Origin: Selenomonadaceae bacterium
GTDB taxonomy: Bacteria > Bacillota > Negativicutes > Selenomonadales > Selenomonadaceae
Length of the DNA stretch: 64,000 nucleotides
Direction: 5' to 3'
NCBI GenBank assembly: GCA_017614505.1
Contig: JAGABT010000016.1
Span: forward strand, 248,001 to 312,000
Shown: positions 58,836-60,132 of the stretch, piece after piece
Layout of the letters: every line of letters begins with the position of its first letter
Numbering within the stretch: position 1 is the stretch's first letter
Position numbers and translations under genes: made by a program
The notes under the pieces: model-generated
The model's input: only the letters and a program-made list of their open reading frames with translations
What the model was told of the DNA's origin: nothing
Database searches by the model: none

Positions 58836-58864
58836 TTGTAAAATTTTTACGCCTGTGTTAGTAT
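58836..58864 (+). promoter_or_regulatory. Promoter of the AICAR transformylase gene
   Basis: TTGTAA (58836-58841), 17 bp, TAGTAT (58859-58864) preceded by TGT, an extended -10. Transcription is expected to begin near 58871, leaving a leader of about 98 nt. Confidence 0.55.
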
Positions 58865-58870
58865 ACGTTT

Positions 58871-58968
58871 CGAGGGACTTGCTGAAGGCGACAGCAAGAG
58901 GGAGTACTTGGCGACAGAAACGAGGGCGTTCGGTAGCTCTCGTTTTTGGCTTTAGGAGGAATTTTTTT
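58871..58968 (+). promoter_or_regulatory. Attenuator/riboswitch-like leader of the AICAR transformylase gene
   Basis: A 7-bp hairpin CTTGCTG/CAGCAAG (58878-58898, loop AAGGCGA) is followed by a second GGCGACAG (58911-58918) and an intrinsic terminator: ACGAGGGC (58920-58927) with GCTCTCGT (58936-58943), then TTTTT. The leader opens with CGAGGG (58871-58876), a copy of the terminator 5' arm at 58921-58926, so it can compete for the 3' arm as an antiterminator. The SD and ATG lie just after the terminator. I see no ZTP, THF, purine or PRPP riboswitch core. Control by a purine or folate metabolite is inferred. Confidence 0.6.
58920..58947 (+). terminator. Intrinsic terminator in the AICAR transformylase leader
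   Basis: Eight-bp stem (one G-T pair), 8-nt loop GTTCGGTA, then five T. It stands between the promoter and the gene, so it must be conditional. Confidence 0.75.
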
Positions 58969-60132
58969 ATGCGCGAACTGGAATTGAAATACGGCTGTAA
59001 CCCAAATCAGAAACCCGCGAAAGTTTTCATGGACTCCGGCGAACTGCCTTTTGAAGTTCTGAACGGCAGACCTGGCTACATAAATTTGCTCGACGCGCTC
59101 AACGGCTGGCAGCTGGTACGCGAACTGCGCGAAGCAACCGGCTTACCGGCGGCGGCGTCATTCAAGCACGTCAGCCCTGCAGGCGCGGCTGTCGGCGTTC
59201 CCCTTGACGATGTACTGAAAAAAATTTATTTCGTCAAAGACGAGCTCAGCCCCATTGCCACTGCCTACGTTCGGGCGCGCGGCGCGGACAGGATGAGTTC
59301 CTACGGCGATTTCGCAATTCTTTCGGACGAGTGCGACGAATCCACCGCCGCTTATCTGAAACAGGAAGTCAGCGACGGCGTTATAGCTCCCAGTTATACT
59401 GACGGCGCGCTGGAAATTCTCAGGAGCAAGCGCAAGGGCGGTTATCTCGTTTTGAAAGTCGACAAAGACTACGAGCCACCGGCGGCTGAACGCAAGCAGG
59501 TTTTCGGCGTGACATTCGAGCAGAACCGCAACGATATGAAAATTTCCGCCGACTGCCTCAGCGATATTCCAACGGCGAATAAAAATTTCACGGACGACGC
59601 GAAAAGGGATTTGCTTATCGCGCTGATAACTTTGAAGTACACGCAGTCCAATTCGGTTTGCTACGCGAAAGGCGGGCAGGCGATTGGCATTGGCGCCGGT
59701 CAGCAGAGCCGCGTTCACTGCACCCGTCTCGCCGGTAACAAGGCGGATTTCTGGTTCCTTCGCCAGAGCCCGCAGGTTTTGAATTTGCCGTTCAGAGCCG
59801 ACGTGAAGCGCCCCGACCGCGATAATGCGATTGATGTTTACATTGGCGCGGAGAGCGAAGATATTCTGAACGATTGGCAGCGCGTCTTTACCGTCAAGCC
59901 GGAAAAATTTACCGACGAAGCCAAACGCGAATGGCTGAACAATTTGAAAGGCGTTGCGCTTGCATCCGACGCATTTTTCCCGTTCGGCGACAATATCGAG
60001 CGCGCGCATAAATCCGGCGTGGAATTTATCGCGCAGACCGGCGGCTCAATCCGTGACGATAATGTTATTGAGACCTGCGACAAATACGGGATTGTTATGG
60101 CAATGACGCACATTCGCCTTTTCCACCACTGA
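58969..60132 (+). CDS. Stand-alone AICAR transformylase (PurH C-terminal domain type)
   Basis: 387 residues, only the formyltransferase half of bifunctional PurH. It begins MRELELKYGCNPNQKPAKVF, has RPGYINLLDALNGWQLV, the catalytic Lys-His in ASFKHVSPAGAAVG, KYTQSNSVCYAKGGQAIG, GAGQQSRVHCTRLA, and ends with ASDAFFPFGDNIE and IAQTGGSIRD. It formylates AICAR with 10-formyl-THF in purine synthesis; IMP cyclohydrolase must be elsewhere. ATG 58969 follows AGGAGG; the longer in-frame ORF reads through the leader and is rejected. Confidence 0.94.
   Translation: MRELELKYGCNPNQKPAKVFMDSGELPFEVLNGRPGYINLLDALNGWQLVRELREATGLPAAASFKHVSPAGAAVGVPLDDVLKKIYFVKDELSPIATAYVRARGADRMSSYGDFAILSDECDESTAAYLKQEVSDGVIAPSYTDGALEILRSKRKGGYLVLKVDKDYEPPAAERKQVFGVTFEQNRNDMKISADCLSDIPTANKNFTDDAKRDLLIALITLKYTQSNSVCYAKGGQAIGIGAGQQSRVHCTRLAGNKADFWFLRQSPQVLNLPFRADVKRPDRDNAIDVYIGAESEDILNDWQRVFTVKPEKFTDEAKREWLNNLKGVALASDAFFPFGDNIERAHKSGVEFIAQTGGSIRDDNVIETCDKYGIVMAMTHIRLFHH

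Follow-up and report, generated by a model that had tools for sequence, protein, structure and literature searches.

The AICAR formyltransferase gene (AICARFT) of the 64-kb window, by which the whole stretch of Selenomonadaceae DNA analysed here is meant, is preceded by a leader that homology searches identify as the window's copy of an uncatalogued small-RNA family of the Negativicutes, which measures about 85-100 nt and occurs mainly in the Selenomonadaceae. Judged by its genomic setting, the RNA forms an independent transcription unit, and because it is retained from genome to genome beside varying neighbours, it most likely acts in trans. The reading favoured here, at a probability of roughly two in three, is a stand-alone small RNA that probably acts in trans together with Hfq and would double in the window as the leader of AICARFT through read-through. 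As far as the open-licence papers extend, it represents a new RNA family of a kind already known, the terminator-ended small RNA.

The regulatory RNAs of the Negativicutes have been little studied, and only a handful of candidate riboswitch motifs for this group was found in the open-licence literature (PMC8632094, PMC6429828). A single-copy, class-restricted RNA with two covarying helices and an unusual conservation of its terminator loop offers a concrete object for work on rumen and gut bacteria. It also illustrates that a terminator-ended leader before a biosynthetic gene can resemble a riboswitch and yet be the tail of another transcription unit.

Anatomy of the AICARFT leader

All elements of the leader are located on the forward strand. 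A sigma-70-type promoter (TTGTAA-17-TAGTAT, 58836-58864), which has a correspondingly placed counterpart in almost every member of the family, is followed by the small RNA gene, which comprises the whole conserved RNA and was delimited at 58869-58950, with a 5' end at about 58871, by the full-length covariance model R2 (E=1.3e-7 over 64 kb). The transcript would begin with the conserved G-rich start CGAGGGA (58871-58877; GGGGA or GGGAG in the family, where alignment columns 4-8 are mostly G) and continue into the P1 hairpin CTTGCTG-AAGGCGA-CAGCAAG (58878-58898), an inverted repeat supported by covariation, whose arms of 7 bp occupy 58878-58884 and 58892-58898. A purine-rich single-stranded linker (58899-58914), regarded as a candidate seed, connects P1 with the intrinsic terminator (58915-58948, arms 58915-58927 and 58936-58948), which is likewise recognised by its inverted repeat and covariation and carries the conserved apical loop GUUCGGUA and a U-tract. 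The linker corresponds to conserved unpaired columns with the family consensus GGCARAAGGUAUAGAGGCGGC, from which the window copy has diverged. The Shine-Dalgarno sequence AGGAGG (58954-58959) falls within the 20 nt that separate the terminator from the ATG (58969) of AICARFT, a stand-alone enzyme of the PRK07106 type (58969-60132), whose protein scores 690.6 bits against NCBIfam NF005492, over the cut-off, and also matches Pfam PF01808.

The promoter, hairpin, repeated motif and terminator that the preliminary description had placed before the Shine-Dalgarno sequence can all be found in the sequence, and the structured, terminator-ended leader of AICARFT is real, its helices and promoter being kept in relatives. 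Generic consensus scans of the window called neither the leader promoter nor the terminator. The fold of the leader beats 200 of 200 dinucleotide shuffles (z -2.84). Two short motifs are present twice in the leader, namely CGAGGG (58871 and 58921) and GGCGACAG (58887-58894 and 58910-58917). The latter repeat was considered as a functional unit and rejected; it appears to be incidental, because its first copy is absent beyond the closest relatives and only the second is kept.

Discovery and distribution of the RNA family

A BLAST search with the leader in the bacterial family retrieved two congeners in which AICARFT has this leader too, together with the 3' half of the leader in other genera, where it precedes a guanylate-kinase-like (GMK-like) P-loop gene. 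The first covariance model, R1, which covered the 3' half only, recovered the RNA across the bacterial family, and the full-length model R2 was built on 16 sequences, all from genera other than the window's. With the window's genus thus left out of its training, R2 matched the leader in the window as given above, the only other match listed being a weak echo of this terminator on the opposite strand (E=0.094), and 58869-58950 was the single place matched in the window's genome.

At E<=0.001, R2 detected the family in 94 of 380 genomes of the class, whose hosts are mainly Selenomonadaceae with about a dozen other families; one copy per genome was found in all but one case, the second copy there being an opposite-strand echo. 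A phylum-wide sample gave matches in 8 of 398 genomes, seven of which are Selenomonadaceae. Many weak R1 matches with E>1e-4 (for example L243, L246, L248 and L249) and a few lower ones (L233, L235 and L238) proved to be ordinary GC-rich terminators and were excluded, and the opposite-strand matches of R2 were set aside as the product of a symmetric terminator.

Conserved structure and promoter

Homologous leaders were collected and examined for covariation, which supports the two helices of the family. Among 61 aligned members, 23 of the 23 pairs of P1 and the terminator change on both sides somewhere, and 95.3% of the cells are paired, versus 45-53% after a shift of the partner by 1-3 columns, no shuffle reaching the observed values, in an alignment fitted to the structure of R2, which favours that structure. 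Every pair of P1 changes on both sides across the 61 relatives, and its arms are wholly different between genera with the pairing retained, while in the terminator 13 of 13 pairs covary and 99.7% are paired. Among the unpaired parts, conservation is seen in the G-rich 5' start, the linker and the terminator loop, the last of which has a UCGG core and reads UUCGGU among the Selenomonadaceae and AUCGGA among the other families. A TTGnnn-17-TAnnnT promoter lies 6-9 nt before the start of nearly every copy, and the mean promoter match amounts to 8.9 of 12 positions versus 6.5 in shuffles.

Comparison with catalogued RNAs

The scan of the window against Rfam 15 at gathering thresholds gave no match, the ZTP, THF, THF-II, PRPP and purine classes included, which agrees with the earlier remark that the ZTP (pfl) and THF cores are not seen. 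Around the leader, the sole match at E<=10 was HIV-1_DIS (dimerisation initiation site), with 21.7 bits versus a cut-off of 35, at 58875-58901; this interval is the P1 hairpin, and the match was dismissed as a sub-threshold chance resemblance between hairpins. The leader is consequently in no class of Rfam 15, as had been supposed, and the other family members yielded chance matches only against the same release and none of their own. No earlier description of the family was found in the open-licence literature, and neither the Negativicutes candidate motifs gltD, ldh2, ilvD and potE (PMC8632094) nor the SLH candidate motif (PMC6429828) fits it.

Genomic neighbours

A GMK-like gene is next on the same strand in 28 of 68 loci, often 20-130 nt away, according to a simple longest-ORF scan in which a few loci are mislabelled where an ORF overlaps the RNA and the counts are therefore approximate. 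In at least 11 loci (L178, L179, L190, L222, L225, L226, L234, L240, L241, L242 and L244) the next gene lies on the opposite strand and encodes, for instance, an HtpX-like, a MATE-like or a small protein; genes of this orientation separate the RNA from the GMK-like gene in L222, L225, L240 and L241. The RNA is retained where the GMK-like gene was undetected (G043; G062, G045 and G018 of g18). AICARFT stands behind the RNA only in the window's subclade, and in the window's genome the GMK-like gene is situated about 50 kb from the RNA on the same contig.

The RNA accompanies AICARFT in about 15 species of the window's genus, of which two rest on weak matches; it lies elsewhere in four more (G141, G151, G098 and G150), and further species of the genus possess AICARFT with the RNA undetected. 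In the AICARFT tree, G098, whose RNA lies elsewhere, is sister to G070, whose RNA lies at AICARFT. Between the RNA terminator and AICARFT, a TTGACT-17-TAAAAT promoter occurs in G142, G126 and G139, and a TTGATA-TATAAT promoter occurs in G153. The gap between the terminator and the Shine-Dalgarno sequence of AICARFT accommodates no promoter in the window and in several relatives, and for this reason the RNA is read there as the cis leader of AICARFT as well.

Several further features of the surroundings were observed. The GMK-like gene is a divergent paralogue that adjoins the RNA in many Negativicutes genera (L180, L202, L241 and others; G000:C16:357586-358161), and its product scores under the Pfam and NCBIfam cut-offs in L180 and under the NCBIfam cut-off in L241. 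In genus g16, an HtpX-like gene directly follows the RNA in L179 and L190, and a GMK-like gene does so in the sister species L180 and L187; neither G043 nor the incomplete G180 (g16) yielded a GMK-like gene. In several families, a gene oriented convergently to the RNA, 14-73 nt downstream of it on the opposite strand (L222, L225, L240, L241 and L261), encodes a small protein (about 70-100 aa) that contains a DVRDILDVFVIxNL-like motif; the copy in L241 gave no Pfam match.

Attenuator, riboswitch or independent small RNA

The leader had been interpreted as a transcription-attenuating riboswitch before AICARFT, of which the structured, terminator-ended leader outside every Rfam class stood, whereas a switch dedicated to AICARFT was not supported, the same RNA being found beside other genes or lacking a co-directional gene behind it. 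According to that interpretation, the CGAGGG start would pair with the 3' arm of the terminator under the control of ZMP/ZTP or folate, for which the distance of only 20 nt to the ATG with the Shine-Dalgarno sequence in between, the joint occurrence of RNA and AICARFT in about 15 species and the lack in this genus of the ZTP riboswitch that relatives use at this place can be adduced. However, the start does not covary with the terminator arm, its complementarity to its own arm (750) is no better than that to the arms of other members (769 +/- 14), and the forced antiterminator CGAGGG/CUCUCG attains -22.1 versus -32.5 kcal/mol for the terminator fold, a loss of about 10 kcal/mol, the proposed role of the start as an antiterminator being left unsupported. 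A conserved, mutually exclusive antiterminator is thus supported neither by energy nor by partner shuffling across the family. Moreover, the same RNA occurs without AICARFT, and AICARFT has its own promoter in four relatives. Because the antiterminator is costlier and the own-arm pairing is no better than with shuffled partners, attenuation specific to AICARFT is unlikely, the window's subclade being the place left for it, and a cis switch dedicated to this gene is given quite a low probability.

The purine-related neighbours might instead indicate a new class of purine-nucleotide riboswitch, whose regulon would include the GMK-like gene and AICARFT and whose loci devoid of a co-directional gene would be relics. 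The frequent same-strand position of the GMK-like gene (28/68) and the conserved unpaired residues around P1, which could form an aptamer, are in its favour, but the RNA is single-copy in each genome and stays intact where the GMK-like gene is undetected or is cut off by opposite-strand genes, and the GMK-like protein falls under the guanylate kinase cut-offs; such a class is deemed unlikely. Similarly doubtful is a dual-function RNA, whose linker or terminator loop would sense a purine-nucleotide signal and control read-through into the GMK-like gene or AICARFT where these are present, and which would act in trans elsewhere. A CsrA-type sponge, which would titrate a protein in place of base pairing, could draw on the unpaired G-rich start and on the GGAUCGGAA terminator loops outside the Selenomonadaceae, but it is disfavoured because the loops of the Selenomonadaceae (GUUCGGUA/U) are without GGA; the start in g21, moreover, is GGGUGAAC, and this explanation is rated as very improbable.

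The stand-alone small RNA is preferred to these alternatives, its own promoter and terminator and a position independent of the neighbouring gene being found in the sequence. It would act in trans by base pairing with the assistance of Hfq, a gene for which was found in 12 of the 13 genomes tested (the window's among them), and either the linker or the loop of the terminator would probably serve as its seed. In the window's subclade, expression of AICARFT would depend on transcription reading through the RNA's terminator, since the RNA gene lies 20 nt before the start codon and no other promoter is visible, and the coupling of AICARFT to the RNA's promoter would be fixed and fractional, possibly also regulated. 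A point against the trans reading is that the two commonest same-strand neighbours, the GMK-like gene and AICARFT, both have a connection with purine nucleotides, as would be expected of a purine sensor acting in cis. The role of the RNA as a cis leader in the window and several relatives and the divergence of the linker in the window copy likewise count against it.

Relation to known systems

With the Hfq-associated, terminator-ended small RNAs of bacteria, the family shares its own promoter, a 5' hairpin, a linker, a U-tract terminator, the single copy and the variable neighbours, whereas it differs in the unusually conserved terminator loop and the lack of a match in Rfam 15, the role of Hfq being putative here. 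Transcription-attenuating leaders resemble it in the terminator directly before the Shine-Dalgarno sequence of a biosynthetic gene; in contrast with them, the window RNA has no supported antiterminator, and the same RNA is found away from AICARFT. In sister genera (L005, L006, L007, L016, L017 and L020), this position before AICARFT is taken by the ZMP/ZTP riboswitch RF01750, but the window RNA differs from it in structure and sequence and gives no match to its covariance model. The 60 genomes examined from the window's genus yielded no ZTP riboswitch, which amounts to a lineage-specific loss of control by ZTP.
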